Part shown: positions 29,351 to 52,840 of the stretch, one piece after another
How positions within the stretch are numbered: the first letter of the stretch is position 1
Layout: every line of letters begins with the position of its first letter
Assembly (NCBI RefSeq): GCF_009765825.1
Contig: NZ_LMUR01000010.1
Coordinates: forward strand, 299,437 to 363,436
DNA: 64,000 bases
From: Granulicella sp. L60
GTDB lineage: Bacteria > Acidobacteriota > Terriglobia > Terriglobales > Acidobacteriaceae
Direction of reading: 5' to 3'
Translations under genes and position numbers: made by a program
Notes under the pieces: model-generated
The model's input: the letters and a program-made list of their open reading frames with translations, nothing else
Told to the model about the DNA's origin: nothing
The model's database searches: none

Positions 29351-29440
29351 TGAACGTTAGGCGCAATGGCGCAATTCGGTACATATCCTCGTTTTCTTAG
29401 TTATGAAGAATTTGTGATCTCTCATTCTCAGGAGAAATTT

Positions 29441-32400
29441 GTGTTCATAAAAAAGTGTTCATTTGTCTTCTTGCTGTCGATTGCTTCAGCAGCTTCAGCT
29501 CAAAACGCACAGTTAACCGGGTTGGTAAAAGACCCCAGCGGTGCATGTATCGCTCGAGCCACTGTAACACTCGCAAACCAGGATACGGGGGCCGTATCAA
29601 CAGCCAAAACGAACGCTGTTGGGTTCTATAACTTTTCATCCGTTATTGCTGGAAGATACGCTGTTAAAGCCGAGGCAAAAAGTTTTGCAAAAACAATGGT
29701 CGATGGTTTACGGGTCGAAACATCTGGGGATCAGAGGCTCGATATTGAACTTAGCGTTCCGCGTGGAAGCGAAACCATAACGGTGCAAGCTGGCTCCGTC
29801 AATATGAATACTGAAGATGCTTCGGTCAGCACCGTTGTCAACCAAGCCCTCATTGGCGAACTACCATTGAACGGACGTAGTCTTGACACTCTCTTCTTAC
29901 TTACCCCTGGCGTGGTTCCATCGGGGACGCAGAATGGTGGCGGTCAATACTCGGTCAACGGCCAGCGATCTTCCGGCAACCAACTAACCGTGGACGGTGC
30001 CTCCGGAAATGTGTTCCTGAGTTCGACGTTCGCTGGCAGTCCTGTGACGGGGTCTGGTCAGACTGGTGTAGCCGGATCGACGTATGCCACCTCGGCCTCC
30101 GGGGGTACTAATGGCCTGTTGCCGGTAGATGCAATTGAAGAGTATCGGATGGAGACATCCACCTATTCGGCAGAGTATGGGCGTTCGCCCGGTGGTCAAA
30201 TCCAAATGCGGACGCGGGGAGGAACAAACACATTTCATGGGTCTGTCTTTGAATATTTTCGCAATCAGGTGATGGATGCGACCGACTGGTTCGTAAAGTA
30301 CAACGGCCTGAAACAGTCGCCACTTAGAATGAATGACTTCGGAGGCACCGTAGGTGGCACCATTTTCAAAAACAAACTATTCTTCTTCGTTGCGCACGAG
30401 ACCCTTGATCTTGATCAGCCAAACAGTACTAAGGCAAGCGTTCCAAGTGCCTTCGCACTGCAATCGGCCAGTGCGACCTTTGCACCGCTTATAGCAGCAT
30501 TCCCCAAGGGAAATGGTGGAACCGCCGCTACCAGTAAGAATCCACAATACACCGATATTTACAATGCTGCCTATGCGACGAAGATAATCGATCACTCAAC
30601 GTCCGCCCGGTTTGACGCTAATCTGCCAGGGGGATACAAAGCATTCTTCCGCTTCAACCTTGCTCCGTCGTCTTCGACGAATACACTTTGGGACTCAAGC
30701 AACTCCTCGCTTGGGTTGAATACTTATACGGGTGGCGTCACTAAATCGTTCACGTCGTCGTTGCTCAACGAATTGACGGCTAATTACAGTACGAACCATA
30801 CAGCATTTAGTTATAAGTTGCTTCCCATAGATGGAGGCGATCCGAGCGGCCTCAATCAATTCTGTTCCACTGAGGCATATAGTCCCGGTGGTAGTTCTTC
30901 GCGTTGTACGTTTACTGGTGTGCGAGGCTGGACAGGGATCAATTTAGGTGTGCCACAGGCAGGCGATGTGAGCCAGTGGAATGTAATTGACAAACTCCAT
31001 TGGACGATGGGCCGACATTCCCTTACTTTTGGCACTGATTTTCGGCGCCTGTTGACCAGTTTTGCGCCCTATACGAACGACACTGTTTATCTTGGCTTTT
31101 TCAATAGTCCTACTGTTATCTCGGGTACTGCCTTTGATGAAGCAGCGACCCAAACAGCAACATTCAACAAACTCTCATTTCCAGTGGATAATCTGTCTCT
31201 ATTCGCTCAAGACGCCTGGCATATTACAAGCCGCCTCACAGTGAATTATGGTTTACGGTGGGAATATAATCCGCCAGTGTCCGATGGGAACGGCGGACCC
31301 CTTGCTCTCATCGGAAGTTCAACCAATCTTTCAAGCCTAGTACCTGCGCCAACCGGTACTCCACTTTATAGGGCGGAACATGGTGCTTTTGCTCCTCGGC
31401 TGGGATTTGCCTACCAGCTTCAGAATCGTCAAGGCTTTGCTACTGTGTTGCGCGCAGGGGCTGGAATATTCTACGACACGGGGCAGGCTGCCACTACATT
31501 GGGCAGCGTCAGCAATAGTTACCCCTACGTCATTACTGCTTCAGCAAGCAATGTTCCCTTCAGTCAGATCAACTTCAAATCGCTTCAGCAAAGCGCTCCG
31601 GCGCAGACTTTGCCCCAGGACACTCTCTATGCTGTCGATCCGCATCTGACACTCCCTTATACGGGACAATGGAACCTCGCCGTTGAGCAGCAGCTCTTTG
31701 GCAACACTTCGGTAAGCGCAACGTACTTGGGCGCCGATGGAGAGAAGCTTGGATCGACTATAGCTGCACAGGGCCTCACTCCGTCGCTTGTTACGCCAAC
31801 AGACGGAGAGCTATTTTTGTTGACCAATCGCGGTAGATCGAACTATCAGGCGCTGCAGCTCCAGGCGACGGTTCGCGCGGCCTCTGGAATCGATGCTCTC
31901 GTGGCTTATACGTACTCGCACAATCTGGACAATGGAACGTCCGATTTTTCAGGTCCGAGTGCCAATGTGACGGACTACTGGGGAAATGCAGACAACGATA
32001 TCCGTCATGTCTTTTCGGCTGGAATGAGTCTGAGGCCTAAAGGCATGTCTGAAAGTAAGCTGCTCAAAGTGGTGTCAACGGGTTGGGTAGTGAACACATT
32101 TATACGGCTGCAAACCGCAACGCCTCTATCCGTATTTGCCACCATTTATACGGTAGACAACAGCAACCAAGGCTTCGCCGATCGCGTTCCGGGAGTTCCG
32201 GTATACAAACATGGTCCTAGTACGGGAGTATGCGCGGTTACCGAGAGCTGCATCCCTGGTGGCGTTCAGCTAAACCCAGCAGCATTTGCCGATCCTCCGA
32301 GAGATCCCGTGACCTTGGCACTGCTTAGAGACGGCGATAGTGGCCGGAACGCCTATAGGCTATTTGGACTACATGAGTTCGACCTATCTACGGGAAGAAA

Positions 32401-32626
32401 GTTCGCTGTTACGGAGCGTGTGGGTTTCGAGTTCAAAGCGGAGGCCTTCAACATACTGAATACCCCGACATTCGCGAATGTGCAGACAGGACTAGATTTC
32501 AACACAAACTTCGGACAAGCCCAAAACACCTATTCGGCTTTTACTGGGGGAAACGGGGGGCAAAATTCGACTTTTCAGCTTGGTGGCGCAAGAAACATAC
32601 AACTTACGGGCAGACTAACGTTCTGA
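29441..32626 (+). CDS. Oar-like TonB-dependent outer-membrane receptor with carboxypeptidase-regulatory N-domain
   Basis: 1061 residues. A signal peptide (CSFVFLLSIASAASAQ) leads into a CarboxypepD_reg-like domain (TGLVKDPSGACIARATVTLA, about 25-110). A plug region follows (NQALIGELPLNGRSLDTLFL, ... GGQYSVNGQRSSGNQLTVDG) and then a long beta-barrel ending in a terminal Phe (QLTGRLTF). Such receptors are highly expanded in Acidobacteriota and import or bind large ligands. GTG 29441 is chosen because AGGAG lies just upstream and the signal peptide starts there; the ATG at 29366 would add a non-conserved leader. It is convergent with the RiPP operon. Confidence 0.9.
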   Translation: MFIKKCSFVFLLSIASAASAQNAQLTGLVKDPSGACIARATVTLANQDTGAVSTAKTNAVGFYNFSSVIAGRYAVKAEAKSFAKTMVDGLRVETSGDQRLDIELSVPRGSETITVQAGSVNMNTEDASVSTVVNQALIGELPLNGRSLDTLFLLTPGVVPSGTQNGGGQYSVNGQRSSGNQLTVDGASGNVFLSSTFAGSPVTGSGQTGVAGSTYATSASGGTNGLLPVDAIEEYRMETSTYSAEYGRSPGGQIQMRTRGGTNTFHGSVFEYFRNQVMDATDWFVKYNGLKQSPLRMNDFGGTVGGTIFKNKLFFFVAHETLDLDQPNSTKASVPSAFALQSASATFAPLIAAFPKGNGGTAATSKNPQYTDIYNAAYATKIIDHSTSARFDANLPGGYKAFFRFNLAPSSSTNTLWDSSNSSLGLNTYTGGVTKSFTSSLLNELTANYSTNHTAFSYKLLPIDGGDPSGLNQFCSTEAYSPGGSSSRCTFTGVRGWTGINLGVPQAGDVSQWNVIDKLHWTMGRHSLTFGTDFRRLLTSFAPYTNDTVYLGFFNSPTVISGTAFDEAATQTATFNKLSFPVDNLSLFAQDAWHITSRLTVNYGLRWEYNPPVSDGNGGPLALIGSSTNLSSLVPAPTGTPLYRAEHGAFAPRLGFAYQLQNRQGFATVLRAGAGIFYDTGQAATTLGSVSNSYPYVITASASNVPFSQINFKSLQQSAPAQTLPQDTLYAVDPHLTLPYTGQWNLAVEQQLFGNTSVSATYLGADGEKLGSTIAAQGLTPSLVTPTDGELFLLTNRGRSNYQALQLQATVRAASGIDALVAYTYSHNLDNGTSDFSGPSANVTDYWGNADNDIRHVFSAGMSLRPKGMSESKLLKVVSTGWVVNTFIRLQTATPLSVFATIYTVDNSNQGFADRVPGVPVYKHGPSTGVCAVTESCIPGGVQLNPAAFADPPRDPVTLALLRDGDSGRNAYRLFGLHEFDLSTGRKFAVTERVGFEFKAEAFNILNTPTFANVQTGLDFNTNFGQAQNTYSAFTGGNGGQNSTFQLGGARNIQLTGRLTF

Positions 32627-32670: not shown

Positions 32671-32690
32671 GGGGGGGTAGTCCCCCCCCC
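32671..32690. terminator. G/C-run hairpin between convergent units
   Basis: Seven G (32671-32677), TAGT, nine C (32682-32690) can form a very stable hairpin 45 bp after the TonB receptor stop and 14 bp after the last RiPP precursor stop. It could end transcription from both sides. No clear T-run follows on the plus strand. Confidence 0.45.
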
Positions 32691-32703: not shown

Positions 32704-32853
32704 CTATTCATCTACTTCATAGGCGCCGTTTGTGCCATTGCTTGGATCGCTTGAATCGCTGCAGAGGTTGTTGGGTTTTCCCGCGCCGCCACCGCTTTCG
32801 ACGAGGTGAATAGCCCTACCGAGGGGTTGCATTGTTGGTACTTGATATTTCAT
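32704..32853 (-). CDS. RiPP (lasso-type) precursor peptide 1
   Basis: 49 residues, preceded by AAGGAG 8-9 bp upstream of the ATG. The leader MKYQVPTMQPLGRAIHLVES carries the YxxP motif recognised by PqqD-like (RRE) B1 proteins. A predicted ring segment GKPNNLCSD (residues 25-33) would close Gly25 to Asp33. The tail SSDPSNGTNG ends in AYEVDE. Last gene of the RiPP operon, followed by the G/C hairpin. It shares the YQ.PT..PL leader, the xKxxxxCxD segment and the GAYEVDE end with precursor 2. The leader residue at -2 is not the usual Thr, so the cleavage point is a guess. Confidence 0.85.
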   Translation of the reverse strand: MKYQVPTMQPLGRAIHLVESGGGAGKPNNLCSDSSDPSNGTNGAYEVDE

Positions 32854-32938
32854 ATCCTTCTCCTTAGACATTGGTGATGTTGAGTTGATCTGGCATGGGT
32901 TCGTAGATCTAGTGCTCCATGTCTTCCGGGAGCAAGCC

Positions 32939-33082
32939 CTATTCGTCTACTTCGTATGCTCCTGCGGATTTCGCATCACCACCATCTGGGCAATGATGTG
33001 TGTTTTTGTTGCCGCCGTTTGTGTGGGTGATCAATTTGGAGGCAAGCTCCAGTGGACTGAGCGTAGGCTGTTGGTAACGCAT
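32939..33082 (-). CDS. RiPP (lasso-type) precursor peptide 2
   Basis: 47 residues with AAGGAG about 8 bp before the ATG. The leader MRYQQPTLSPLELASKLITH has the YxxPxLxPL form. The predicted ring segment is NKNTHHCPD (residues 25-33), aligned position by position with precursor 1 (C31 and D33 in both). The tail GGDAKSA ends in GAYEVDE. It lies 85 bp upstream of precursor 1 and 80 bp downstream of precursor 3 and shows the same layout. A long open frame on the opposite strand is a shadow. Confidence 0.88.
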   Translation of the reverse strand: MRYQQPTLSPLELASKLITHTNGGNKNTHHCPDGGDAKSAGAYEVDE

Positions 33083-33162
33083 GATAGTTCTCCTTTCAGA
33101 TTCATGGCCGGCTTTGGCGGTCGGCCACGCTTGCTGTCACTGTTCACCGACGGTGACGATTT

Positions 33163-33297
33163 CTATTCATCGACCTCATATGCGCCATCGCTATAACAAG
33201 GGCCGCTGGTGTCTTGACACTGTGTCGCACATTTGTCGTAGTTAGCTATCCGATTGAGGGGATGTGCGGGGGATGTGAATGGGCGCGTGTATTGCAT
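33163..33297 (-). CDS. RiPP (lasso-type) precursor peptide 3, cysteine-rich
   Basis: 44 residues, AAAAGGAAG upstream of the ATG. The leader MQYTRPFTSPAHPLNRIANY keeps YxxP. The predicted ring segment is DKCATQCQD (residues 21-29) and the tail TSGPCYSD ends in GAYEVDE. Three Cys (23, 27, 34) could form disulfides or thioethers, unlike the single Cys of the other two. Its first 52 bases overlap the 3' end of the cyclase gene in another frame, so translation is probably coupled. It shows that the family tolerates a variable middle but not a variable C-terminus. Confidence 0.85.
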   Translation of the reverse strand: MQYTRPFTSPAHPLNRIANYDKCATQCQDTSGPCYSDGAYEVDE

Positions 33298-35210
33298 TGT
33301 GTGTCTTCCTTTTCAGAAACTGGCGTCGTATTGACGCCGCGTAAGTTGGCCAATTGCATCGGCATGTTGCGCTGCATAAGCCAGTAACAAGCTCCTAGAA
33401 CACCGTGGAGCAGCACAACTGGTGCCTCCTTACCCTGACGCAGCCTTTCTATGTCCTTAAGCACTTGGGTCACGTCAATGTAGCGTTCCCCGATGGCTGA
33501 CTTAGGCAGCAGTGATTCGAGGGCCGCCGCGGAGTCGATCAGCTCTAAGGCTATTTCCCGTTTCCCCAACCACTTCGTCTTGCGGAAAAGTACAACATCT
33601 GGCACGATGCCCTTCAGCGCCCGTCGCATCAACGATCGCCGCTGTTTCGCACGGAGAAGCTGTTCTTCAGGAATAGCAAAGAGAAAAGCGACGAGGTCGC
33701 GGTCGTAATAAGGAAGCGTCAACCGCCCATCTACCCCTGTAATACTCAATGGCCTGTTCTGAAGAGTCGAAGCGAGCGTGAGATAAGCGGAATTGGGAGA
33801 ATTTGGGCCGGGCAGGTAATCCTGCCATGTTCGAACAGCGCTGAGGCTTCGTTCACGGGCGTCATAGCGCTTGGCGAACTCGGGTTGTAGCCAGGTCGAC
33901 ACTTCCGCGGTTGCATCCAGTTTTGCCCGCACGGTCAAAGGCATGAGCTCAAGGACAGAGCGGCCCAGCAGTGTCCAGATAGGAACCTTTCGCTGCAAAC
34001 TCCAAGCCTGAATTTGCTCCCAGTATGTTGGTAGGTGCAAAGTCCAGAGCGATGTTGCAAGTTGCGGTACAGGATTCTGGACTCCACCAAGGAGCTCATC
34101 TCCGCCAAGACCTGCGAGATGAACCCGGTTGGACTGTGCTGCTGTCGCGTCAGATACTCGGAGTTCATGCTGTAATGTGCTGTTGAAGGAGCCAGGTAGT
34201 GGAGAAAAGCGTTCAGCAGGCAATGGGACGAGCCCAAGCCTGGACTTGGACATTTGCAAGTGGGTTCCCGTCTTGCCGATATGTGCCTCAATTGCCTCGT
34301 AGTACGGACGTTCGTCACCACCAGGCTCGTCCAACGAATAATACGAGAGGGTATTGATAAGAGCATTGGCTTCGCCTCGATTGATCAGGTCGTAAGCAAT
34401 ACACACAATCGAACTGGAGTCGAGCCCTCCGCTCAAATCTGCTTGGATGGGGTAGTTGGTTCGCATACGGTGACGCAGTGACTGTCGCAGAAAGTAGCGG
34501 AAATGCTCTTCGTATTCAGCATCCGACTTGTAGCGGATGGGCCGTTGATGAGCGAAGCTCCAGTAACGCTGAATGCGAAGTCGATGAGTGTCGACCTCAA
34601 CATATGATCCCGGTGGCACCGCTTGAATCTCAGCATAAGGAGTGAGCTGCGGCTCAGGATGGGAAACAAAGTAGCCAGCGAAGTATTCGTCGCATAGCGC
34701 AAACTCCTCGCCACTGTGCAGAACGAGAGTCGTAAGGTTCGTCGACCAGAACAGGCTCTTAGGGGTTCGCAGATAATAGAGCTTACGAATGCCGATGTAG
34801 TCCCTTGCAAGAATGAGGCGCCGCCGTCTCCGATCCCAGACCGTCATTGCCCAATCGCCAATAAGACGTCGGAAGCAATCTGTACCCCAATGATCGAAAG
34901 CCGCAGCAGCAAGTTCCGCATCGGTGGGAAGATCGACCGATCTGCTGTCCAGAGCGAGAAGCAGTTCCTCCTGATTATCCAGTCGGCCGTCCCATAGCAC
35001 TCGATTCCCGTCCCGACTGTGAATCGGCTGTACTTCCAACGAGTCCTCTGCGGTGACGTAATAGGCGCGATATAGAAGTGTGAGGCCATCTTCTGCATGC
35101 TCCCCGCGGCCGTCAGGTCCATGTTGAGCAAGTGACTGCTCAAACGCCAGTATCTGGGACGGGTCTACAGGGGCGTGATCGAAATGCCAGATGCCTGCTT
35201 GCATACTCAT
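33246..35210 (-). CDS. Asparagine-synthetase-like lasso peptide cyclase (McjC/LarC-type)
   Basis: 654 residues. The N-terminal Ntn/glutaminase-like domain (WDGRLDNQEELLLAL, LIGDWAMTVWDR) lacks the catalytic Cys after the initiator (MSMQAG), as expected of a cyclase that needs no glutamine. The synthetase domain has the ATP pyrophosphatase loop QADLSGGLDSSSIVC (about residue 258) and HLAGLGGDELLGG. It adenylates an Asp/Glu side chain and closes the macrolactam with the new N-terminus of the core. GGAG lies 6 bp before ATG 35210, 9 bp after the B2 gene. Its 3' end overlaps precursor 3. Confidence 0.9.
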   Translation of the reverse strand: MSMQAGIWHFDHAPVDPSQILAFEQSLAQHGPDGRGEHAEDGLTLLYRAYYVTAEDSLEVQPIHSRDGNRVLWDGRLDNQEELLLALDSRSVDLPTDAELAAAAFDHWGTDCFRRLIGDWAMTVWDRRRRRLILARDYIGIRKLYYLRTPKSLFWSTNLTTLVLHSGEEFALCDEYFAGYFVSHPEPQLTPYAEIQAVPPGSYVEVDTHRLRIQRYWSFAHQRPIRYKSDAEYEEHFRYFLRQSLRHRMRTNYPIQADLSGGLDSSSIVCIAYDLINRGEANALINTLSYYSLDEPGGDERPYYEAIEAHIGKTGTHLQMSKSRLGLVPLPAERFSPLPGSFNSTLQHELRVSDATAAQSNRVHLAGLGGDELLGGVQNPVPQLATSLWTLHLPTYWEQIQAWSLQRKVPIWTLLGRSVLELMPLTVRAKLDATAEVSTWLQPEFAKRYDARERSLSAVRTWQDYLPGPNSPNSAYLTLASTLQNRPLSITGVDGRLTLPYYDRDLVAFLFAIPEEQLLRAKQRRSLMRRALKGIVPDVVLFRKTKWLGKREIALELIDSAAALESLLPKSAIGERYIDVTQVLKDIERLRQGKEAPVVLLHGVLGACYWLMQRNMPMQLANLRGVNTTPVSEKEDTQCNTRAHSHPPHIPSIG

Positions 35211-35219
35211 GCAGTTCTC

Positions 35220-35594
35220 CTAGCAGCGGTCCAGGATTAAATACTCTGCCTGTACTTCAGGCTTGTCGTTTACAACGCGTCCATCGACTTCGACCCAGGC
35301 ATGCGATTTGAGTGGCAGCCGTTGTGCTCCTATAGTGAGTTCTGCGGCTATTCCATGTTGTCGAAGCAGCACAGTCGCCACGGTGGACCGCTGCAGGCAT
35401 AGTGCGTGCTTGGGGTACCACATGCATGCATGAGCTACTGCCGTACAGATTGTCTCTATGTCGTTTGGACTTGGGGTGTGTCTCGCGACGGGGATGTTCC
35501 GAACCTGTTTATACAGAGCGAAAAAGTCATGCTTCCGAAGGAAGAAATCATACCGCAGCAGTTCAATCAGGGAACGAAGGATCAATCTACGCAT
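35220..35594 (-). CDS. Lasso peptide biosynthesis B2 protein (leader protease)
   Basis: 124 residues of the transglutaminase-like B2 family. The catalytic Cys is in ALCLQRSTVATVLLRQHG and the His/Asp in KSHAWVEVDGRVVND. It cuts the leader off the precursor together with the separate B1 protein. ATG 35594 is used (GAGG about 8 bp upstream), which overlaps the end of the oligopeptidase gene by 8 bp; the longer open frame would overlap it by 47 bp. Split B1/B2 is the usual arrangement outside McjB-type clusters. Confidence 0.9.
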   Translation of the reverse strand: MRRLILRSLIELLRYDFFLRKHDFFALYKQVRNIPVARHTPSPNDIETICTAVAHACMWYPKHALCLQRSTVATVLLRQHGIAAELTIGAQRLPLKSHAWVEVDGRVVNDKPEVQAEYLILDRC

Positions 35595-37650
35595 GGGGTA
35601 CCTCGATCTCGAGTTGCCGGCACAGAAAGGCAACTCGATGAACTAATGCATCGATTCGCGTGGATAAGGGAAGAGTGGCGAAATGACCACGCAGAGGATT
35701 CCAGTCGAGAAGGACCGGGTTCGCATCGCGTTCTTCCACCGGAAGCGCACTCATTGCGGCCTGGAGACGCGCGATGTATTTGAGCGCGTGCATGGGGTCA
35801 CAACGAGTGTCTGCGCCTCCCGAAACCATGAGCAGAGCGGGGTATGAAACCCCGTCTTTGATGTTGTGATACGGCGAGTAGTCCAGGAGTATCGGGAAAT
35901 CATATGGATCTTCAGAAGAGCCGAACTGGGAGAGGTAGAACTGAGTATTGTCAAAGCGGTGGTAACGGAGCATGTCGAGGAATGGAGCGACGCAAAGCAC
36001 GGCTCGGATAAGATCTGGCCGTTGTGTCATGGCGACCCCCATGAGCAAACCTGAATTGGAGCCACCAGCAACTGCGAGTTTCCTGGGGTGGGTGAACCCC
36101 TTCCCAGTCAGATAGTCGGCCGCCGCAATGAAATCAGAGTGAACGGTCGGGCGATTTCTGCGAATACCAGCCTGGTGCCAGGCTTCTCCGAACTCGCCTC
36201 CGCCTCGCACATTGGCTATGGCAAAGTGACCGCCGATTTCGACGAAGTAACTCGCCAGGGGGGAATATCGTGGTGTGAGGCTAATGCCTGCAGCGCCATA
36301 GGCGGTCAGCACTGTAGGAACCGATCCACGTTTGAACGTTTCGGGTTTACCCAGAATCGTTATGGGGATCTGCGTACCGTCCGGTGCGGCGTAGGTGGAG
36401 CGCCGAGCATCGAAGGAAAGCCTGGCGAGACGCTCTTCCGAAAATGGCTCGTTCGATTGTGTCTGGAAAAGATAGCGATATACCGAAGGGGGCTGACAGT
36501 AGGATTCGAAGCTGTAGAAGAACTCCGTTGTGTCGCCACCGATGATACTGATGCTGCCAGATTCCGGCGTCGTGAGCGTGCTGACCAAGCTGCCGTCGAG
36601 CGTGTAAATCCGAACTGTGCTGGCCAGATCCTCCACAGTGGCGACAACTAAGTAGTCGCTGAAGATTCGCCAACTCTGAATGCGCTGCGGTCCTTCCTCG
36701 AGTACAAGTTCCGCCGCTTCAATATCAGGAGCTGCGAGTGAGGTCTTAAGGATGCGAAGGTTTGGAGCCTGGACGTTTGTAGCGAAGAACAGTGACTCTC
36801 CCGCAATCCTGAAGTCGTACTGGTCTGTCGTGTCCTCAAGTAAGGCGAGAATTGGATTGCCACAGGTGCCCAGGTTCTGAAGGTAGTAGCTTTGAAAGAC
36901 TTCATCAGGCTTGGCCTTGATAGTGACATGCATCGCGATACCTGACTCGCGGTCCAGACCGCTGACCAAACGAAGCTTCTCGGATCGGCCGCCATAGAAC
37001 ACAGTTTTGTCTTGAGCGAGTTCCGTGCCGAGTTGGTGAATCTTAACGCTCTTGGGTTGGGTCGGGTTACCCACCTCTTCGGTCACATAGAGGAATCCCT
37101 TTCCATTCTTGAGGAACGAGAAGCCGCGCAGTGCCCCTTTGGGCAATTCATCTGGTAGAGTGGCTCCCGTCGTCACGTCGAGAATGCGAACGCGTCGGGC
37201 ACCTTGCCCACCTGTACGGACCCCATAGGCCAGCAGGCCCCCATCTGCAGAAACGTCGACGATGGTGACCGAAGCATCCTTCCCCTCTCCAAGGGATTCC
37301 GGATCAAGCAATCGACGGTCTTCTCCATTGAAGCTTTCTCTCAGATAAATGCTGGACTGTTCTTCGCCGCGGTTACGCTTCGAAAAGAAGTAGCGATCCG
37401 CTACCTTCCTCACCTCACCGATACTTCCTATATCAAACAGCTCTGCGAGACGTTGCCGCATGAGATCGCTGTCTGGAAGGCCCGCAAAGTAGCTTTGGGT
37501 GTAAAGCGTCTGCTCATTGGTCCAGGCTTGCGTTTGTTTCGATTGATGGTCTTCGAGCCAGCGGTATGGATCGACAACGGACACACCGTGGTATATGTCT
37601 GTGACCGGCTTCGGAACGGAGTAGGGGGCGAGTATTTGCGTGACGCTCAT
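35587..37650 (-). CDS. S9A prolyl oligopeptidase inside the RiPP operon
   Basis: 687 residues. A seven-bladed propeller occupies about 70-400 after the family's N-terminal DPYRWLEDHQSKQTQAWTNE. The alpha/beta-hydrolase domain carries Ser in LAVAGGSNSGLLMG, Asp in SGGADTRCDPMHA and His in WNPLRGHFATLP. No signal peptide, so it should act in the cytoplasm. S9 enzymes in other lasso clusters are isopeptidases that linearise the peptide after uptake; here the gene sits between tailoring and maturation genes, so leader trimming, C-terminal trimming or self-protection are all possible. The ATG overlaps the kinase stop (ATGA). Confidence 0.88.
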   Translation of the reverse strand: MSVTQILAPYSVPKPVTDIYHGVSVVDPYRWLEDHQSKQTQAWTNEQTLYTQSYFAGLPDSDLMRQRLAELFDIGSIGEVRKVADRYFFSKRNRGEEQSSIYLRESFNGEDRRLLDPESLGEGKDASVTIVDVSADGGLLAYGVRTGGQGARRVRILDVTTGATLPDELPKGALRGFSFLKNGKGFLYVTEEVGNPTQPKSVKIHQLGTELAQDKTVFYGGRSEKLRLVSGLDRESGIAMHVTIKAKPDEVFQSYYLQNLGTCGNPILALLEDTTDQYDFRIAGESLFFATNVQAPNLRILKTSLAAPDIEAAELVLEEGPQRIQSWRIFSDYLVVATVEDLASTVRIYTLDGSLVSTLTTPESGSISIIGGDTTEFFYSFESYCQPPSVYRYLFQTQSNEPFSEERLARLSFDARRSTYAAPDGTQIPITILGKPETFKRGSVPTVLTAYGAAGISLTPRYSPLASYFVEIGGHFAIANVRGGGEFGEAWHQAGIRRNRPTVHSDFIAAADYLTGKGFTHPRKLAVAGGSNSGLLMGVAMTQRPDLIRAVLCVAPFLDMLRYHRFDNTQFYLSQFGSSEDPYDFPILLDYSPYHNIKDGVSYPALLMVSGGADTRCDPMHALKYIARLQAAMSALPVEERDANPVLLDWNPLRGHFATLPLSTRIDALVHRVAFLCRQLEIEVPHA

Positions 37651-39041
37651 AGCACACCTACCGGTTGTAAGAGTTCAAGTTCTCGTTGCAACCGTCGCAG
37701 GAGGCTTCTGTTCACCTTGTCGAGCATGGGGCTCGTATCCTGGTTTGCGGGATTGGCTTGTCCTTGAAGAGCGTGGATCAATACTGCCACCGCGGGCGAG
37801 AGACGCAGGCCTGCGTCGACACGACTACGCCCCAGGAGTGAGGTCCAACTGCGATAGGCATAGTTGCGGTGCATGCGTTCTCGCCACTCTGCATGGCTGG
37901 GGTGGTCTTTGATCGTGCGGTTCCAGAAAAACTCCCAGGATATAAAGGGGAAGGCCACGTAAGCTTCCGCCCAGTCGATAAGGATCGGCCACCCATTCTT
38001 GACGATGACGTTATGAGGACTGAAGTCGCCGTGGGCGATGCTGTACGGAATGTCGACGTCTTCGACCTGATGGCAGAGGTCGCGGCAGCCTTGGGCAATA
38101 TCCCGCAACTCTGCCCTGCTGAGCATCGCCGGCGGAGAGCTTGGTTGCCTCGCTGCGACCTCGATCATGGATTCGAAAAAGGGATCGATGGATTCCAGAA
38201 TCCTGGGAATGCGCCAGTCTGCGCAGCCGAGGTCCAGAAGCTTGTCCTCACAATTCGTAAACACGGTCTGCACCTTGGCCAGAATGCGGGCTGTCAAAGC
38301 CCAGGGCCTTCCATCCGGCTCTACGTCCAGTTCGTGCCCGTTGACCTCTTCTGCCAGCCATCCATTGACCTCCGGCTTGGTTGCTACTACCTTGGAGAAC
38401 CACCAGGGGCATTGCGCAGTCAGCAATTGCGTTATAGCGAACTCGCGCACATTGGGTTCACCCACCGCTTTGAACCAGAGGGCGGCCGGGGTTTCAGGGG
38501 TAGCCTCGCCAATTGGCTCTACCCCGATTCGGAAGAGTGCAAACCATGGGTCGCCATTCCACTGCTTGAAGCTGACCTCCCGCAGACCGAGAGTTGAAAG
38601 CTGAGATGTATACCAATCGCGGAGCTCATCAAGCCCCCTATAACGACCGAAGCTGCTCGGCCTTTCCCCAGAGTCGTAAGACTCGAATTCATGGAGACCT
38701 TCGACCAGAACTTGTCGATCTTCGATGCTAAGCTGTGCTCTCGCCTGTTCTGGCGTAACCCAGTTGAATGACGCGGGAGCGTCCAGGCTGTCATTCTGGA
38801 AGCGACATATCGCCGTCAGAGCCCCGGTTCGACCTTCTCCTTCGACACGAGCGGAGAGAATCAGAAACAGATCAATCCCATACTTGTCGCGGGCGACATC
38901 GGTTACTGAATGTGCGAGTCGAGTGAACCGCGGAATCTCAACGGTGGGAAGGCTTTCAGAGGCCCCGCAGCGATTTACGAGGACCTGTTTATGTCTGTCG
39001 AGAACAACCAGATAGACGAGTTGGTGCGCTTCCTCTGACAT
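37647..39041 (-). CDS. NUDIX-like/aminoglycoside-phosphotransferase-fold fusion 1
   Basis: 464 residues. The N-terminal 130 residues (LVYLVVLDRHKQVLVNRCG, ... LAHSVTDVARDKYGI) look like a degenerate NUDIX fold. The C-terminal part is an APH/choline-kinase fold with catalytic loop IAHGDFSPHNVIVKNG and metal Asp in PILIDWAEAYVAF. The substrate is unknown. In this operon a peptide or a peptide-bound sugar/amino acid is plausible, and several Ser/Thr occur in the precursor tails. ATG 39041 has GAGGAGA 7 bp upstream, better than the GTG at 39056. It lies 16 bp after its paralogue. Confidence 0.78.
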   Translation of the reverse strand: MSEEAHQLVYLVVLDRHKQVLVNRCGASESLPTVEIPRFTRLAHSVTDVARDKYGIDLFLILSARVEGEGRTGALTAICRFQNDSLDAPASFNWVTPEQARAQLSIEDRQVLVEGLHEFESYDSGERPSSFGRYRGLDELRDWYTSQLSTLGLREVSFKQWNGDPWFALFRIGVEPIGEATPETPAALWFKAVGEPNVREFAITQLLTAQCPWWFSKVVATKPEVNGWLAEEVNGHELDVEPDGRPWALTARILAKVQTVFTNCEDKLLDLGCADWRIPRILESIDPFFESMIEVAARQPSSPPAMLSRAELRDIAQGCRDLCHQVEDVDIPYSIAHGDFSPHNVIVKNGWPILIDWAEAYVAFPFISWEFFWNRTIKDHPSHAEWRERMHRNYAYRSWTSLLGRSRVDAGLRLSPAVAVLIHALQGQANPANQDTSPMLDKVNRSLLRRLQRELELLQPVGVL

Positions 39042-39057
39042 CGATTTTCTCCTCACA

Positions 39058-40365
39058 TCATGCGTACATGACCGACCTTGTGGTTTGCAGTTCTTTGAGC
39101 TGATGGTGCAGCAACCTCGCTAAGGATCGGAGGTAGCTGTCGTAGGGACTTGGGCCATGGCACTCGCGCTCGTGATAGAACATTGCTACCGCGAGAACTG
39201 CAAACGTCGGCAAGAGGCGAGCCCCCACCTCAACAGACGACTTCCCGTATGAGTCGGCCCAGGGTTCTAAATAGGTGCGGCGGAGCGTATTTTGCCAGGG
39301 TTTGCGTTCTGGCGCTTCGACGGCCATGCGATTCCACAGATACTCGCCGGCGATCAGGGGTAGGCTCACGCACGCTTCTGCCCAGTCGATGTAGATCGGT
39401 TTCTGTTGATGGATGAGTGTGTTGTGCGGGCTGAAATCTGCGTTCGCCAGCCCCTCTGAGAAGGGCAGGTCTGCAGCCGCTAGACACAATTCTTCTACCC
39501 CTCGTTCCAATAAAGAGAGATCGGTCGCTCTCAGTATGGCTGGTGTCAGCGTCTGCTGCCGCTCCATAGCCGATGCGATGTGTGTAAGAAACCCTGGCAG
39601 CCTCTCGACAAGGGCGGAAGGGCGAAGATCGGCTGCACCGGAGGCCAGCAGTATCTCGGAATTGCCCATCCAATCTACCTGAATCTCCGCGAGGGATCTG
39701 GCTACTTTCTTCCACGTATCAAGGTTCTCTATCGCATGCAGCTCTGTGCCTTCAATGTGCTGCAAGAGAAAGGCATTCCATCGCGCCTCGGAGGCAACAA
39801 CCCGCGGGAAGTATTGTGGATGGCGATCCGCAAGTAACCTTGAGATCCAAAATTCACGAACGTTGAAGTCGGTCACTGATTTGAACCAGAAGGTAGGACC
39901 GTTTGTGAAGACTTGAAGCAGGACGCCCCCGACCCGGCCATTCCATTGTTCGAGACGGTGAACCGAGTAGCCCATGCTTTGCAAGGTGTTGATTATCCAT
40001 TCAGTTGTCTCGGTGTACCAGGCGTACCCCCCGAACTCCGGGTTTGTAGTATCGACGGAAGAAAGAACAGACGCAAACTCTTGTCCCGCTAGATCGCCGG
40101 CGTCGCTCCAGGTGAGACCAGAGGGAAGACCGTTCTCAGGTCTGTGCAACCGCACGACATGAAGCCGTGTTTCGGGATTGTTTGGCAGCACAAGAGAGAA
40201 GATATCGAGGTGTAATTGTTCGCGCACAGCTCGCGACAACATAATGCCAACTCGACCGGGCGATACATCGACTTCAGGCAGCGACCAGCCAGCGGGGGAC
40301 CTCCGAACGGCCACTCGGCCAAATTCATTGAGAATCAATAGGGTAGCTTTGTATGTCTGTGTCAC
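39058..40365 (-). CDS. NUDIX-like/aminoglycoside-phosphotransferase-fold fusion 2
   Basis: 435 residues, paralogous to the downstream gene in length and layout: NUDIX-like start (KATLLILNEFGRVAVRRSPA), then APH fold with FWFKSVTDFNVREFWISRLL and the loop GLANADFSPHNTLIHQQKPI, YIDWAEA. Here the canonical HGD is NAD, so the His of the catalytic loop is replaced while the Asp and the later Asn remain. Activity may be altered. GTG 40365 overlaps the methyltransferase TGA (GTGA) and has AGAGGGGG upstream. Confidence 0.76.
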   Translation of the reverse strand: MTQTYKATLLILNEFGRVAVRRSPAGWSLPEVDVSPGRVGIMLSRAVREQLHLDIFSLVLPNNPETRLHVVRLHRPENGLPSGLTWSDAGDLAGQEFASVLSSVDTTNPEFGGYAWYTETTEWIINTLQSMGYSVHRLEQWNGRVGGVLLQVFTNGPTFWFKSVTDFNVREFWISRLLADRHPQYFPRVVASEARWNAFLLQHIEGTELHAIENLDTWKKVARSLAEIQVDWMGNSEILLASGAADLRPSALVERLPGFLTHIASAMERQQTLTPAILRATDLSLLERGVEELCLAAADLPFSEGLANADFSPHNTLIHQQKPIYIDWAEACVSLPLIAGEYLWNRMAVEAPERKPWQNTLRRTYLEPWADSYGKSSVEVGARLLPTFAVLAVAMFYHERECHGPSPYDSYLRSLARLLHHQLKELQTTRSVMYA

Positions 40366-41762
40366 ACTGCACCCCCTCTTGGCCCGCACACAAGCAGCCT
40401 GCGTCCATCCTTCGCCGGGGTCAGTATGTCTACATGCGGAAAATGACGACCCAAGGCGCTTGCGAATTCCTCTGGGGAGTACCAGGAGTCTGCGTCAGGG
40501 CGCCATTCCGCTGGCTGGACGCGTTCGCGACCGACATATTCTACGAGTGCCCGTCCGCTGGAGAAGCTCTTTACACCGCTTGCGATCTCTTCAAAGTCCA
40601 AACGGTACTTGCCGAAGACCATGTGGTGCGCCAAGGCGAAGCACAGCACAAGATCGGACTTTAGACGTTCTGTCGCTGGAGGGAACCAGCGATGGTTGAC
40701 TCCCCGCCCCGGCGTGGGAAGAGTGAAGTCAAGGACCACCGGGTAAAGCGACAGATCACTCTCTTGTGTGTTGGTGTAGGCGACGTCTACAAGAGCAGGA
40801 TCGAAATCGGCGGCTATGACCTCACGACCCTGTTGTGCGGCTTGACGTGCATAATGACCTGTATTCGCACCCAGATCGAGCACACTGCTAATTTTCTCTC
40901 GCTCGAGAATCGACGTCAGAACTTCCTGCTTGCGAGCCCAGGATGTTCCGATGCCCAAGTCGCAGTCCGTCGCAAAGTAGTCGATCCAACGGTTAGCGGG
41001 CGCCGACAAGGCGAGGGACTCGATCTCCGCTGCCGCTTGTTCGAGGAATGGTATAACACTGCTCTCTGCGCCATCGGGGTTCCATTCGGTCCATGCAGAC
41101 TCAAGATGTTCGATGTCCCTTTGCGACACGCCTTCTCGAAGATCCTCGCACAGCCTTCTCGCCGTGTGCTCACAACCATGCTCCACGAGCAGTAATGGGC
41201 GAATGAAGAAGCTGGCGAGCTTTTCATAACTCCGCGCAAAGGTTTGAGAGTCGAGGCGCACGATGGAGGCGGGATTGGCATACGAAAACTGTCGTCCGTC
41301 GAACAGCAGTGTCCATGGGTGCGGGTTCCGCAGGGTGAGGTCGTGCTCGGCGAGTCGGACAAACAACTCGATGAGACGAAGGCTCGCCGCACGCCACATC
41401 TTTGGAGACCACTCATGCCAGTAAGTAATCCGCGGGGTGGAATCGAGTTCGTAGACGGCATCGAACCCAGGCACTGACGAAGGACGGCGGTCCAATCCGA
41501 AAAGTAAGCGTTGTGCGAACAGGTCATCAAGGACGTGAGAATGCAGTAAGTTGGTGACGAATTCGGCATGTGGGGCCAGGACACCCAGCCAGAGGCGCCG
41601 TTCACGCCAGAACAGCCGAGCTTGAGGATCGCCGAAGTAGCGAGCGTAGTAGTGCAGCCTGGAAGAATCAATTGGCTCATCCGCCGCTTGCTCGAACAAG
41701 CGAGGGCCATCCTGCCGAGCGACCTCGGCCAACGCAAGCGAGCTGCGCGCGACGGCATTCAT
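40362..41762 (-). CDS. Class I SAM-dependent methyltransferase with N-terminal domain
   Basis: 466 residues. The last 190 residues form a Rossmann methyltransferase with motif I SSVLDLGANTGHYARQAA and acidic loop VIAADFDPALV. The first 250 residues (RNPHPWTLLFDGRQFSYANP) resemble the N-terminal kinase-like domain found in a family of larger class I methyltransferases. It could methylate the precursor, for example a carboxylate or side chain, or a small building block. ATGA overlap with the redoxin gene upstream. Confidence 0.8.
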   Translation of the reverse strand: MNAVARSSLALAEVARQDGPRLFEQAADEPIDSSRLHYYARYFGDPQARLFWRERRLWLGVLAPHAEFVTNLLHSHVLDDLFAQRLLFGLDRRPSSVPGFDAVYELDSTPRITYWHEWSPKMWRAASLRLIELFVRLAEHDLTLRNPHPWTLLFDGRQFSYANPASIVRLDSQTFARSYEKLASFFIRPLLLVEHGCEHTARRLCEDLREGVSQRDIEHLESAWTEWNPDGAESSVIPFLEQAAAEIESLALSAPANRWIDYFATDCDLGIGTSWARKQEVLTSILEREKISSVLDLGANTGHYARQAAQQGREVIAADFDPALVDVAYTNTQESDLSLYPVVLDFTLPTPGRGVNHRWFPPATERLKSDLVLCFALAHHMVFGKYRLDFEEIASGVKSFSSGRALVEYVGRERVQPAEWRPDADSWYSPEEFASALGRHFPHVDILTPAKDGRRLLVCGPRGGAV

Positions 41763-42286
41763 AGAGTCGCCTCGACTCTTTCGGACACGGACCTGACGAC
41801 GGGGGACAACTCGTCGAGAAGCATCCGAAGGTTTATCGCCGTGTCGTTGAACAACTGGTGTTGGCCAGTGAAGACCCCGCGCAACTGCTGTTGGCTATCG
41901 ATGGCGATGAGCGTCGGAAAGTAAAGCCATGTCGAGCGTGGAATGCTGAGGGCATTGCAAAGGTCACGGTTCGTGCAATGCCTGAGCGGAAAGCTGGTGT
42001 GTGTTTCGTCCGCGAACTCTGCCAATCCCTCTTCACATGCGTTCTGAATGCAGATCCCAACAAACTCGATTTCGGGGGAATACTCGTAACGAAGCTCTGA
42101 AAGAGACCGGGCGAGTTGTTTGCAACTTCCGCAGTCGATACCCAGAACAAACAGCAGAACGGCTCGTCCGCCCGATCCTGCAAGATGCAACGGAGTGTTC
42201 TCCTCTGTTGCGGGAAGCAGGATCATATCCCGTATGGGTTCCGCCGAAGACTCTGGATTGCTAAGGAAGCTACGAGACATCTCCAT
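41759..42286 (-). CDS. Thioredoxin-fold redoxin with CGSC motif
   Basis: 175 residues. Single redoxin domain with the active-site segment LFVLGIDCGSCKQLARSLSE (CxxC = CGSC). No obvious signal peptide, so it is likely cytoplasmic, unlike the TlpA-like protein at 25.4 kb. It may control the redox state of the Cys in the precursors' CxD segment. ATG 42286 has AAAGGA 8 bp upstream; a much longer frame above it overlaps the B1 gene and is not conserved in character. It lies 13 bp after B1. Confidence 0.78.
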   Translation of the reverse strand: MEMSRSFLSNPESSAEPIRDMILLPATEENTPLHLAGSGGRAVLLFVLGIDCGSCKQLARSLSELRYEYSPEIEFVGICIQNACEEGLAEFADETHTSFPLRHCTNRDLCNALSIPRSTWLYFPTLIAIDSQQQLRGVFTGQHQLFNDTAINLRMLLDELSPVVRSVSERVEATL

Positions 42287-42299
42287 TTCCGGGTCCTTT

Positions 42300-42572
42300 C
42301 TAAACCGAGGGCATTTCCGATTCGACGATTCCGTAGGAACGCAGCTGCGCCATGAAGTTCGCGAGATCAGGTCGGACGATTTCGGGAAAGACCTCGCATT
42401 CTCGGCTGATGGTCGCAATGATCTGGTCTTCAGGAACGGACTGCTTGAGAAGTTCGAGAATTCTCCCGCCCACTGGATCAGAGGTGAACATCAGGCCGCT
42501 CTTGATCTCCATGACGACGGCACCATCCGGGGTGTTGATTAGGCGTGTTGATCTGGAAATCTGTTCACTCAT
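42300..42572 (-). CDS. PqqD-like RiPP recognition element (lasso B1 protein)
   Basis: 90 residues of the PqqD/RRE winged-helix fold: TRLINTPDGAVVMEIKSGLM, then FTSDPVGGRILELLKQSVPE and VRPDLANFMAQLRSYGIVES. It binds the YxxP motif of the leader and delivers the precursor to the B2 protease and the cyclase. First gene of the leftward operon, with AAAGGATAG about 11 bp upstream. Confidence 0.88.
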   Translation of the reverse strand: MSEQISRSTRLINTPDGAVVMEIKSGLMFTSDPVGGRILELLKQSVPEDQIIATISRECEVFPEIVRPDLANFMAQLRSYGIVESEMPSV

Positions 42573-42675
42573 GGCGACTGCCTATCCTTTCGAATGCGAC
42601 GGGCGGGAACTCCTGGGAGAGGGGGACGTCGATTCAGGTGAAAGGATCATGCGCTCATGTCCATGGTCTGCGCCA

Positions 42676-42701
42676 TGTCCATTTGGCCTGTCCATTTGGT
42701 C
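42676..42701. promoter_or_regulatory. Tandem 13-bp repeat pair A
   Basis: TGTCCATTTGGCC (42676-42688) and TGTCCATTTGGTC (42689-42701) stand head to tail. The core CCA-TT-TGG is a dyad. The pair begins 104 bp upstream of the B1 start. Confidence 0.55.
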
Positions 42702-42954
42702 CGCCCTTGTGGCCGGCCAACCGGCCATAGCGGTACGTTTCAATCTGTGCTAGGCGCAGTTATCGCGATATGGGGAATGTCGCAAATGATGGATATGCTC
42801 GGCGGACTTATGTCCACGGAACAGGCGAATTTACAGGTAAAACCGCGTTGTAAGGCGATGTCGAACAGCAGCTATTTGGGGCAACTGCAACGCGGCCAAA
42901 ATTGGATGCGCATAAGAGAGCAAATTCCTTTCACACTTTTTTGTGGAAGGTCTA

Positions 42955-42980
42955 TGGCCATTTGGCCATGCCATCTGGTC
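42955..42980. promoter_or_regulatory. Tandem 13-bp repeat pair B
   Basis: TGGCCATTTGGCC (42955-42967) and ATGCCATCTGGTC (42968-42980), with the same 13-bp period and core as pair A. The pair ends 100 bp upstream of the exporter start at 43080. Confidence 0.5.
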
Positions 42981-43079
42981 ATGGTGACAGGTGTTCGAAC
43001 GCTTATACAGTTGTGTGCAGATGAACGAGGGATGGTGTTGAAATCAATGCCAGTTCTATCACCAAGCCGGGTGCAGAAC

Positions 43080-44855
43080 ATGTCTCTGCTTCGCAAGCTG
43101 CCGAAGCTTGCAAGAGAGGTGTGGCAGAGCAGTCCCGTGCTCACGATTCTGATTGTGCCGCTGAGAATGCTTGGTGCCCCGTTGCCAGTGGCTCTCCTGG
43201 CGGTCGCGGGAGCAATCCTCGATAGCATCAATCGCGTGCAACGATACGGCGGCAGCTTGCACAAGCTATGGCTTTTGCTGGCGCTCGAAGCAGGTCTCGT
43301 CGTCGCGAACGACCTCATCTCTCGTTGTAGCTCTCATTGCGACACTCTCATCAGTGATCGCTTTTCGTTGCACCTCAATCTCCGTCTGATGCAACATTGC
43401 GCGGACCTCGATCTTGAGAACTTCGAGAGCCCGGCGTTTCAGGATCGTCTGGAACGGGCAAGGACGCAGGCATCGTCGCAGGTTGCCTTGCTTCGAACTC
43501 TGTTACAGATCGGCCAGCAGACCGTGGGGGTAGTCGGGATGATCGCCAGCGCGTTCGTGCTGGCTCCTGGCCTGATTGCCATTCAGCTAATCGGAGTGTT
43601 CCCCGTAGTGTTCGCTGAGAGCTACTTCGCGAAGTACCGGTACACGCTTAACCGAAGCAGGACCGCTGTGCGTCGCCTCATGGAATACCTGTTGATCCTC
43701 GGCACCAGCTCTGCTGTTGCCAAGGAGCTCAAGTTATTCAGGCTGGGCGGACACATCAGGGAGCAGTATCGTTCAATCGGCGAGAAGTACAACCGCGAAG
43801 ATGCTGAGTTGTCCGGAAAGCAAATGTATATCGGCGTCGCTCTCATGGGCCTGGGCACTGCCGTCTACTACGCAGCTTATGGCGTCCTCTTATACAGGGC
43901 CGCTCATGGTGGATTGTCGATAGGGCGTTTGGTCTTTCTGTCGGGGATACTCCAGCGCACGAAGAGTCAGCTCTCTGGACTCTTTTCGGGCATCTCACGG
44001 ACGCTGGATCAGTTGATGTATCTCGGTGACGTCTTTGAACTGTTCGGCGAGACGTCCAGAATTCAAAGACCAAGAGACCCAAAAGTGTTTCCGGTTTCAA
44101 TTCAATCGGGCATCGAGTTCCGCCACGTCTCCTTCGCATACGCCGGTTCTTCGAAGTGGGCCCTGCGGGATGTATCGTTCCGGATCGCACCCGGCGAGCG
44201 GATCGCTCTGGTTGGAGAGAATGGAGCGGGAAAAACCACAGTGATCAAGTTGCTGACCCGGCTCTACGATCCGACCGAAGGTCAAATATTGATTGATGGC
44301 ACAGACCTGCGGGAGTTTGCACCCGAGGATCTTCGGGGCGCCGTGACGGCTGTCTTTCAGGATTTTGTTCATTACGACCTGTCCGTCAAGGACAACATCG
44401 GTTTCGGCAATATCGACAGACTCAGCGATCTCGATAGCATCGCTCGCGCGGCGAAAGAGGCTCGTGCGGCGTCCGTAATTGAGAACCTTCCGAGGCGCTA
44501 CGATCAAATTCTCGGTAAGCGGTTTGATGAAGGGATGGAGTTATCGGGAGGGCAATGGCAGAAGCTTGCTCTGGCGCGCGCGTACATGAGGGATGCGGCT
44601 GTTGTCGTTCTGGATGAGCCGACAGCGGCGATCGATGCTCGTGCCGAGGCGGCGCTCTTTCACGATTTTGCGGAGATGATGACGGGGAAGATCGCCCTGC
44701 TCATCTCCCATCGGTTTTCCACGGTCAGGATCGCAGACCGAATTTTGGTGCTGGAAGGAGGGATGATTCGGGAACAAGGGAGCCACGAGGAATTGCTCGC
44801 CGCGGACGGCGAGTACGCGCAACTGTTCGAACTTCAGGCCGCCGGATATCGGTGA
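43080..44855 (+). CDS. ABC exporter (membrane domain fused to ATPase), lasso D-type
   Basis: 591 residues. The N-terminal half has six membrane helices (PLRMLGAPLPVALLAVAGAI, ... QTVGVVGMIASAFVLAPGLI). The ATPase has Walker A ALVGENGAGKTTVIKLL, Q-loop TAVFQDFVHYDLSV, signature LSGGQWQKLALARAY and Walker B VVVLDEPTAAIDAR. It is the likely exporter and immunity pump for the mature peptides. ATG 43080 gives the normal family N-terminus; starts at 43032 or 43047 are possible, as ribosome sites are weak. Divergent from the biosynthetic operon. Confidence 0.87.
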   Translation: MSLLRKLPKLAREVWQSSPVLTILIVPLRMLGAPLPVALLAVAGAILDSINRVQRYGGSLHKLWLLLALEAGLVVANDLISRCSSHCDTLISDRFSLHLNLRLMQHCADLDLENFESPAFQDRLERARTQASSQVALLRTLLQIGQQTVGVVGMIASAFVLAPGLIAIQLIGVFPVVFAESYFAKYRYTLNRSRTAVRRLMEYLLILGTSSAVAKELKLFRLGGHIREQYRSIGEKYNREDAELSGKQMYIGVALMGLGTAVYYAAYGVLLYRAAHGGLSIGRLVFLSGILQRTKSQLSGLFSGISRTLDQLMYLGDVFELFGETSRIQRPRDPKVFPVSIQSGIEFRHVSFAYAGSSKWALRDVSFRIAPGERIALVGENGAGKTTVIKLLTRLYDPTEGQILIDGTDLREFAPEDLRGAVTAVFQDFVHYDLSVKDNIGFGNIDRLSDLDSIARAAKEARAASVIENLPRRYDQILGKRFDEGMELSGGQWQKLALARAYMRDAAVVVLDEPTAAIDARAEAALFHDFAEMMTGKIALLISHRFSTVRIADRILVLEGGMIREQGSHEELLAADGEYAQLFELQAAGYR

Positions 44856-47610: not shown

Positions 47611-47773
47611 CGTTGATCTCCCTCGTCGGTTGAATGTCTGGAATGCAAGTCATCGTTGTGGTCGTGGCGGCGGTAATGTGGGAATCGCAACGCGATTTCC
47701 AAGGGCAGTGGGAAGGGTGGAAAACGGCTCGATCGTTTTCCGTGCTTTCCACTGCCCGTCATTTCCACCGCCT

Positions 47774-49810: not shown

Positions 49811-49827
49811 GTTGGCGGCGTCTCCTT

Positions 49828-50145
49828 TTACGCGTGAGTTGTGCTGTTGGCTGGAATCGAGTCAGGTTTACGGACCGGCTCAGTTGCAGGCTTGACCGGT
49901 GAGGTAGCGGCCTTAGTCTCGGTGGAAGGACGCGCGGGACTCGGAGACCGGCTGGCCTTGTACTTGAGGAAGTCCTCTTCCTGTGTCAGAGCGAAGCGCA
50001 AAAGCTCATTGATGATGTACTTGCGTTCGTTATCGGACCACTCGCACATCAGGTCGATGTCATTCGAGATGCTGTCCTCGATGTTGGTCTTCAGGAGGAC
50101 GAGCCGAACCTTACTGGCGCCATGCTCGATCTTGAACTTACTCAT
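49828..50145 (-). CDS. Small acidic/proline-tailed protein of the conjugation operon
   Basis: 105 residues. The N-terminal 65 residues (KVRLVLLKTNIEDSISNDID, then NERKYIINELLRFALTQEED) have a short strand followed by two helices, which would fit a ribbon-helix-helix-like fold; the tail is rich in Pro, Thr and Ser. GAGAGGAA lies 8 bp before the ATG. It starts 60 bp after the five-copy iteron array and may bind it. No family assigned. Confidence 0.65.
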   Translation of the reverse strand: MSKFKIEHGASKVRLVLLKTNIEDSISNDIDLMCEWSDNERKYIINELLRFALTQEEDFLKYKASRSPSPARPSTETKAATSPVKPATEPVRKPDSIPANSTTHA

Positions 50146-50204
50146 CTATGGTTCCTCTCTGGCCGCAGATGCGACCTCGCGATGTACAACACTGGGACTA
50201 ACTC

Positions 50205-50311: not shown

Positions 50312-50319
50312 AACGGCAG

Positions 50320-50394: not shown

Positions 50395-50443
50395 ACATAC
50401 CCCTCCCTGACCCCACATACTGGCGCAAATCGTTGGGTTATAG

Positions 50444-52838: not shown

Positions 52839-52840
52839 AG

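Follow-up and report, generated by a model that had tools for sequence, protein, structure and literature searches.

The window analysed here is a stretch of 64,000 nucleotides from Granulicella sp. L60 (contig NZ_LMUR01000010.1, positions 299,437 to 363,436). Between 32704 and 44855 it contains a gene cluster for a ribosomally synthesized and post-translationally modified peptide (RiPP). Judged from the sequence, the machinery of this cluster is of lasso type and its three precursor genes are real. On balance, we consider it rather probable that the cyclase of the cluster would join the side chain of an internal Lys to an Asp, forming a lactam by means of lasso machinery, instead of using the N-terminal amine. 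The gene anatomy, the Lys-Asp spacing and a shared C-terminal tail were read directly from the DNA; every chemical step is inferred.

The three precursors, P1 to P3, share the C-terminus GAYEVDE. A DNA pattern for this tail followed by a stop codon was found three times in the window and not once in 100 shuffles. Each precursor also contains K-x4-C-x-D, and outside the tail no core residue other than this K, C and D is invariant. The Asp lies at +7 from the Lys, a span of eight residues counted inclusively. In the list below, the predicted ring segments are drawn from these invariant columns together with the Lys rule described further on.

32704..32853, minus strand: precursor P1, 49 amino acids; YxxP leader, V at -2, tail GAYEVDE
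32755..32778, minus strand: P1 predicted ring segment KPNNLCSD (residues 26-33)
32707..32727, minus strand: P1 tail GAYEVDE, putative follower
32939..33082, minus strand: precursor P2, 47 amino acids; YxxP leader, I at -2, tail GAYEVDE
32984..33007, minus strand: P2 predicted ring segment KNTHHCPD (residues 26-33)
32942..32962, minus strand: P2 tail GAYEVDE, putative follower
33163..33297, minus strand: precursor P3, 44 amino acids; YxxP leader, I at -2 shifted by one residue towards the N-terminus relative to P1 and P2, tail GAYEVDE
33211..33234, minus strand: P3 predicted ring segment KCATQCQD (residues 22-29)
33166..33186, minus strand: P3 tail GAYEVDE, putative follower

The Tyr and Pro of the YxxP motif are invariant in all three leaders. 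With the start of the core defined by the leader, directly after an [IV]x pair, the cores begin SGGGAGK (P1), HTNGGNK (P2) and NYDK (P3), and none of the three has Asp or Glu at core positions 7-9. An acceptor at 7-9 could be reached only by an unusual cut, at Gly25 in P1 or at the Lys in all three. When a set of 5.8 billion proteins was searched, three of four candidates were homologues of the precursors (P1, P2 and P0123, the last a close homologue of P3); such short genes are probably seldom called, which would account for the small number. The host genome contains a second cluster of the type termed K-type below (L140), whose precursor ends GAYEADE.

Relatives were collected by two routes. 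Named genomes were scanned with 24 aligned cyclases, that of the window included, which gave at least 79 loci, most of them from Acidobacteriota by title. Sets of 100 relatives, 398 genomes of the family, 399 of the class and 396 of the phylum were then searched; these sets overlap and each includes the host genome. Cyclase matches were obtained in 3/100 (E 1e-100), 5/398 (1e-135), 42/399 (1e-70) and 14/396 (1e-60) genomes. No window-like cluster was found in any of the four sets besides that of the window itself, and the best other full-length cyclase match was 42% identical. A 203-residue cyclase piece in genome G665 reached 53% identity, and partial close relatives among the named-genome matches listed were L058 and L061. 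Cyclases 47-88% identical (P0003-P0038) are also encoded on metagenome contigs. A further 25 regions were fetched, and the 140 loci available ahead of the phylum search entered the precursor analysis, among them L042, the locus of Acidicapsa dinghuensis 4GSKX.

These 140 loci yielded 133 unique short open reading frames (ORFs) with YxxP and [IV] at the right place near the cyclase; YxxP ORFs were therefore present beside related clusters, as the earlier note on this DNA required of a lasso-type system. Ten were excluded: L127, which fits the Lys rule but failed the acidic-end filter; L030, with neither Lys nor tail; L077, which looks canonical; and seven that look spurious. The 123 kept still include one spurious-looking ORF, the second of L136. 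Two precursors of L112 and one of L148 were read by eye; they obey the Lys rule and stand outside the counts. At L131 (G214:C1) the cyclase relative has an in-frame TAG and lies beside a precursor-like ORF without an acidic tail, as if this cluster were decaying.

Ninety-three of the 123 kept precursors end Y-x-x-(DE, DD, WE or AE). This Y..DE class was defined by its tail, which is present in 93/93 by construction; the Lys rule was no part of the definition. All 93 have a Lys with Asp or Glu at +6 to +8, the spans from Lys to acceptor being 7, 8 and 9 residues in 42, 37 and 14 precursors. After removal of cores at least 50% alike, the rule was obeyed by 80/80 cores, whereas 2000 shuffles gave 19.4 on average and never more than 34, figures that overstate independence since the sequences are related. 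The 21 precursors that came from loci fetched after the rule had been seen all obey it (21/21), L115 and L128 among them being nearly identical. In cores with a single Lys (n = 60), Asp or Glu was present in 3-8% at offsets 1-5, rising to 50% at +6, 40% at +7 and 17% at +8, and the residues between Lys and acceptor had only 0.3-0.7 bits.

The Lys sits anywhere from core position 2 to 9 and is never replaced by Arg among the 93 precursors. In the 27 loci with two or more precursors, its position differs in 10 and that of the acceptor in 8. A permutation used acceptors already picked by the rule and was not counted as evidence. Residue 1 is Gly in 30/93 precursors, and Gly1 together with an acceptor at 7-9 occurs in only 4/80 cores. 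In the tail, Glu is found four residues after the Tyr in 91/93. A Cys inside the K...D segment is present in four cores, three of them those of the window. The precursors of two Pyrinomonadaceae loci (L044 and L048) end DFDE and conform to the Lys rule, their Lys standing at position 3.

The site of leader removal bears on which amine is available. Across the 80 cores, conservation was 3.1 bits at P+12 (mostly I/V), 2.0 at P+13 (mostly Q) and 1.0 at the next residue (Gly/Ser-rich); [IV] was a filter in this set, and a set chosen without that filter has [IV] in 97/98. The two residues before the Lys had 0.56 and 0.40 bits. Lasso B2 proteins are described as reading position -2, Ile included, in PMC10368454. 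Because [IV]Q is conserved at a fixed distance from YxxP and the residues before the Lys are not conserved, the leader is more likely to be removed after [IV]x than directly before the Lys, which would leave one to eight residues ahead of it.

The main rival, which we regard as unlikely, places the cut elsewhere: either B2 or another protease, for instance the prolyl oligopeptidase (POP) of the cluster, would cut directly before the Lys, and the alpha-amine of a Lys at residue 1 would close a ring of 7-9 on Asp or Glu, giving a classical lasso peptide. The observed spans do match the lasso ring sizes given in PMC10368454. This explanation has to contend with the conserved [IV]Q at its fixed distance and the poorly conserved residues (0.40 and 0.56 bits) at the site where cutting would occur. 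It would also make leader length vary even inside one cluster, given the 10/27 loci in which the Lys position differs, and alpha-amine chemistry leaves a Lys that is never replaced unexplained. Masses calculated for the two cases differ: a core cut after [IV]x that has lost one water would weigh 2880.17, 2862.20 and 2843.06 Da for P1 to P3, leaving aside trimming of the tail, disulfides and further modification, and a peptide starting at the Lys 2494.02, 2281.97 and 2450.93 Da.

The cyclases were aligned for residues that follow precursor type. In the column of window residue 376, directly after GxGGDE, Gly was present in 69/69 aligned rows classed as K-type, and Asn, Cys or Ser in 9/9 canonical rows. 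Five rows termed GK (Gly1-x-Lys/Arg3 and Asp8 or Glu8/9), which are placed among the K-type rows in the tree, read Met, Gln, Gln and Asn, the fifth, L020 (Lys-to-Glu span 7), having Gly. Gln was read by eye at this position in L030, whose precursor has no Lys, and in L061. Mapped on a quickly built tree of 85 cyclases, the precursor types needed 3 changes, compared with 15.5 in shuffles. The K-type rows do not form one clade as drawn (midpoint root), and the window cyclase and that of L042 fall beside canonical rows. Gly376 would on this basis be a correlate with few independent changes and not a proof. Positions 295, 503 and 524 likewise separate K-type from G-type rows and were put down to ancestry, the GK rows sharing the K state (4/5 at 524). 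The model of the window cyclase had a pLDDT of 84.7, its closest folds being TsnB9, beta-lactam synthetase and AsnB. Tandem cyclases were seen in the GYxDWE-tailed clusters L026, L027, L032, L035, L037 and L038; the second copy has a lost or changed GGDE, as if it were a non-catalytic partner.

In the proposed pathway, B1 would bind the YxxP leader, the cyclase would activate the Asp, and the epsilon-amine of the Lys would close the ring. B2 would cut after the [IV]-x pair, so that a few free residues would precede the ring at the N-terminus. The acidic tail may act as a recognition or follower element, possibly trimmed by POP. An APH-like kinase may phosphorylate the peptide, and the ABC protein would export it. 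With somewhat less than even confidence, we extend this tentatively to a large, so far unrecognised acidobacterial RiPP class, in which a lasso-type cyclase would join a Lys epsilon-amine to Asp/Glu over a span of 7-9, with a free N-terminal stretch and an acidic C-terminal follower. In such a class Gly376 would mark the switch between N-terminal amine and Lys, and clusters filed as lasso would be mis-predicted. For lasso clusters, core prediction takes residue 1 and an acceptor at 7-9 for granted. If the proposal were true, many acidobacterial clusters would be mis-predicted, and these cyclases would be a ligase family stapling side chains without ATP-grasp proteins.

Several observations weigh against a Lys side-chain linkage. 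No product of the cluster is known, and the spans of 7-9 coincide with the ring sizes of classical lasso peptides, as would be expected were the Lys residue 1. The Lys-to-acceptor span itself varies in 8/27 multi-precursor loci. Some Asp or Glu stands at canonical positions 7-9 in 17/80 cores, and 34/80 have a Gly in the first ten residues with Asp or Glu at a 7-9 span. The two Pyrinomonadaceae clusters have Asn/Ser at residue 376 although their precursors follow the Lys rule, and Ala is read there, without alignment, in the second member of the L023 tandem cyclase pair. Lys3 persists in the GK group (Arg in L024) though Gly1-Asp8 would do, and the Lys may be retained there for another reason. 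POP is missing from 31 of 78 judgeable K-type loci.

A rather improbable explanation is that the Lys is kept for recognition or another modification and that any ring closes at a different site, such as on the acidic tail or with a different amine. The tail has many conserved acids, the Glu at Tyr+4 (91/93) among them, so that another acceptor is conceivable; the tight Lys-Asp/Glu spacing would then be unexplained while both residues shift relative to the leader. Ordinary lasso peptides, in which the ring would start at the residue following [IV]x, as the earlier note implied, are very improbable. The B1, B2, C and ABC genes are all present, and canonical Gly1 precursors were found beside more distant relatives (L063-L065) and in the same family (L150). 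Against such a product stand the 0/3 window cores with Asp or Glu at 7-9 and the low count of Gly1 with such an acceptor in relatives (4/80). The lasso reading of the cluster held for its machinery and precursors, without an ordinary lasso product being implied. A decayed or silent cluster, which the rarity of window-like cyclases in the relatives searched might suggest, is scarcely credible, every frame being open, the motifs intact, and APH2-APH1-POP-B2-C being kept in order at 49-64% identity in L058.

The genes of the cluster other than the precursors were as follows.

33246..35210, minus strand: C, Asn-synthetase-like cyclase without Cys2; GxGGDExxGG motif with Gly376 (Pfam, NCBIfam, alignment)
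35220..35594, minus strand: B2, transglutaminase-like leader peptidase (Pfam and NCBIfam, query run from the upstream start 35633)
35587..37650, minus strand: POP, S9A prolyl oligopeptidase (Pfam)
37647..39056, minus strand: APH1, kinase-like protein with an extra N-terminal domain (Pfam APH 1.2e-6)
39058..40389, minus strand: APH2, APH1 paralogue without the His of HxDxxxxN (Pfam, alignment)
40362..41762, minus strand: protein with a C-terminal methyltransferase domain (weak Pfam Methyltransf matches)
41759..42286, minus strand: redoxin-like protein, start chosen at 42286 (Pfam Redoxin 1.5e-7)
42300..42572, minus strand: B1, PqqD-like leader-binding protein (PqqD 3.5e-12; TbiB1, 5v1u, 7.7e-5)
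43080..44855, plus strand: D, divergent ABC exporter (ABC_tran match)

The ORFs that had been claimed for B1, B2, C, the exporter and the three precursors were recovered at these places, and Pfam domains matched the identities given to the first four. B1, B2 and C thus gave the domain hits whose absence the earlier note had named as refuting its claim. B2 hit Transglut_core3 (3e-24), and C hit Asn_synthase PF00733 (1.6e-27) plus GATase domains. C begins M-S-M and has no Cys at position 2, in agreement with the claimed lack of the glutaminase Cys. With the lasso models of NCBIfam, B2 scored 72.6 bits, above the cut-off of 33 (NF033537); C scored 272.6 bits, under the cut-off of 525 (NF033535), and B1 32.3 bits, under the cut-off of 70. 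The ABC reading frame is open from 42657, and 43080 is a plausible start. The YxxP leaders, a ribosome-site-like sequence ahead of each precursor and gaps of 80 and 85 bp between them were likewise as described. P3 starts inside the cyclase gene, the overlap being 52 bp. Upstream of the precursors eight genes were counted, where the earlier note had nine: B1, B2, C and, between B1 and B2, the redoxin, the methyltransferase-domain protein, the two APH-like proteins and POP. Short gaps and overlaps separate them, and from this spacing a single transcript for these genes and the precursors is plausible. A sigma-70 consensus scan of 42500-43200 gave no minus-strand site. The conserved Lys, the Asp at +7, the acidic tail, POP and the kinase-like genes had gone unmentioned in the earlier feature list.

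Where the flanks allow, the recurring gene order is ABC, B1, APH-like, POP, B2, C, precursors. A relative of the window POP was found in 47/82 K-type loci (31 without, 4 undecidable), 6/10 GK, 0/2 Pyrinomonadaceae and 0/9 canonical loci, and a relative of APH1 in 30/82 K-type loci; these counts include genomes seen twice. Among solved relatives, POP comes closest to prolyl endopeptidases, with 2bkl as best match (6.4e-100). A role as lasso isopeptidase was considered as well: none of the 45 solved sequences reaching E <=1e-20 is named isopeptidase, their names being of the kind prolyl endopeptidase, peptide cyclase and oligopeptidase B, and no isopeptidase was compared directly. Cutting by POP after a Pro ahead of the tail was considered and set aside, Pro being present at Tyr-2 in 20/54 precursors with POP and 8/34 without, no clear link. 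In the APH-like family (25 sequences) K191, E200, D339 and D356, which we take to be the kinase residues, are invariant, and the APH1 model (pLDDT 91.8) matched choline kinase/APH folds. For the redoxin and the methyltransferase, tblastn at 1e-3 gave no relative in the 140 loci, many of which are short. Together with the Cys of the ring segment, these two genes may be read as a lineage-specific Cys modification.

The cluster may adjoin an integrative element, because conjugation-type genes with T2SSE/VirB11-like, TraG/VirD4-like, VirB8 and TrbI domains follow on its right (46693-63246). On the other side, a large outer-membrane beta-barrel protein with a carboxypeptidase-regulatory domain (29366-32626) is convergent to the precursors. 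Just downstream of P1, at 32671-32690, a G run stands opposite a C run in a short inverted repeat that was not reported by the terminator scan.

The open-licence literature yielded no recognisable description of the Lys rule or the acidic tail, subscription papers being outside the scope of the search. The strings AYEADE, AYDLDE and GYADWE were absent from the open-licence papers searched, and AYEVDE was found in four insect papers. The main text of a 2026 review of interlocked peptides (PMC13352647), searched by term, has neither 'lysine' nor 'Acidobacteri'. The acidobacterial cluster BGC 44.1 from a soil metagenome (PMC9064862) has the order ABC, B1, B2, C, A, as in the window, and its authors looked for Gly-Asp cores. 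According to the same paper, three soil-metagenome lasso clusters, one of them with Acidobacteriia Blastx hits, were expressed and no lasso product was detected; the fit of those precursors to the Lys rule was not checked here.

Closest in gene content are the split-B1/B2 lasso peptides with Ile/Val(-2), such as Bradymonas bsf and those of Acidobacteriaceae (PMC10368454), which have B1, B2, C, ABC, YxxP, Ile/Val(-2) and a kinase gene in common with the window. The window cluster differs in having no acceptor at 7-9, an internal Lys, identical acidic tails, three precursors after C, and POP; its kinase is APH-like, whereas BsfK is called distantly HPr-kinase-like in that paper. The POP-family macrocyclases PCY1 and OphP, found among the solved relatives, share the S9 prolyl oligopeptidase fold with the window POP, which is closer to ordinary prolyl endopeptidases and is accompanied by a second ligase, C. 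The predicted linkage itself resembles the Lys-Asp/Glu side-chain lactams of graspetides (PMC12291112, PMC13097080). A Pfam scan found no ATP-grasp domain in the nine cluster proteins, and the ligase of the window, unlike that of graspetides, is Asn-synthetase-like.

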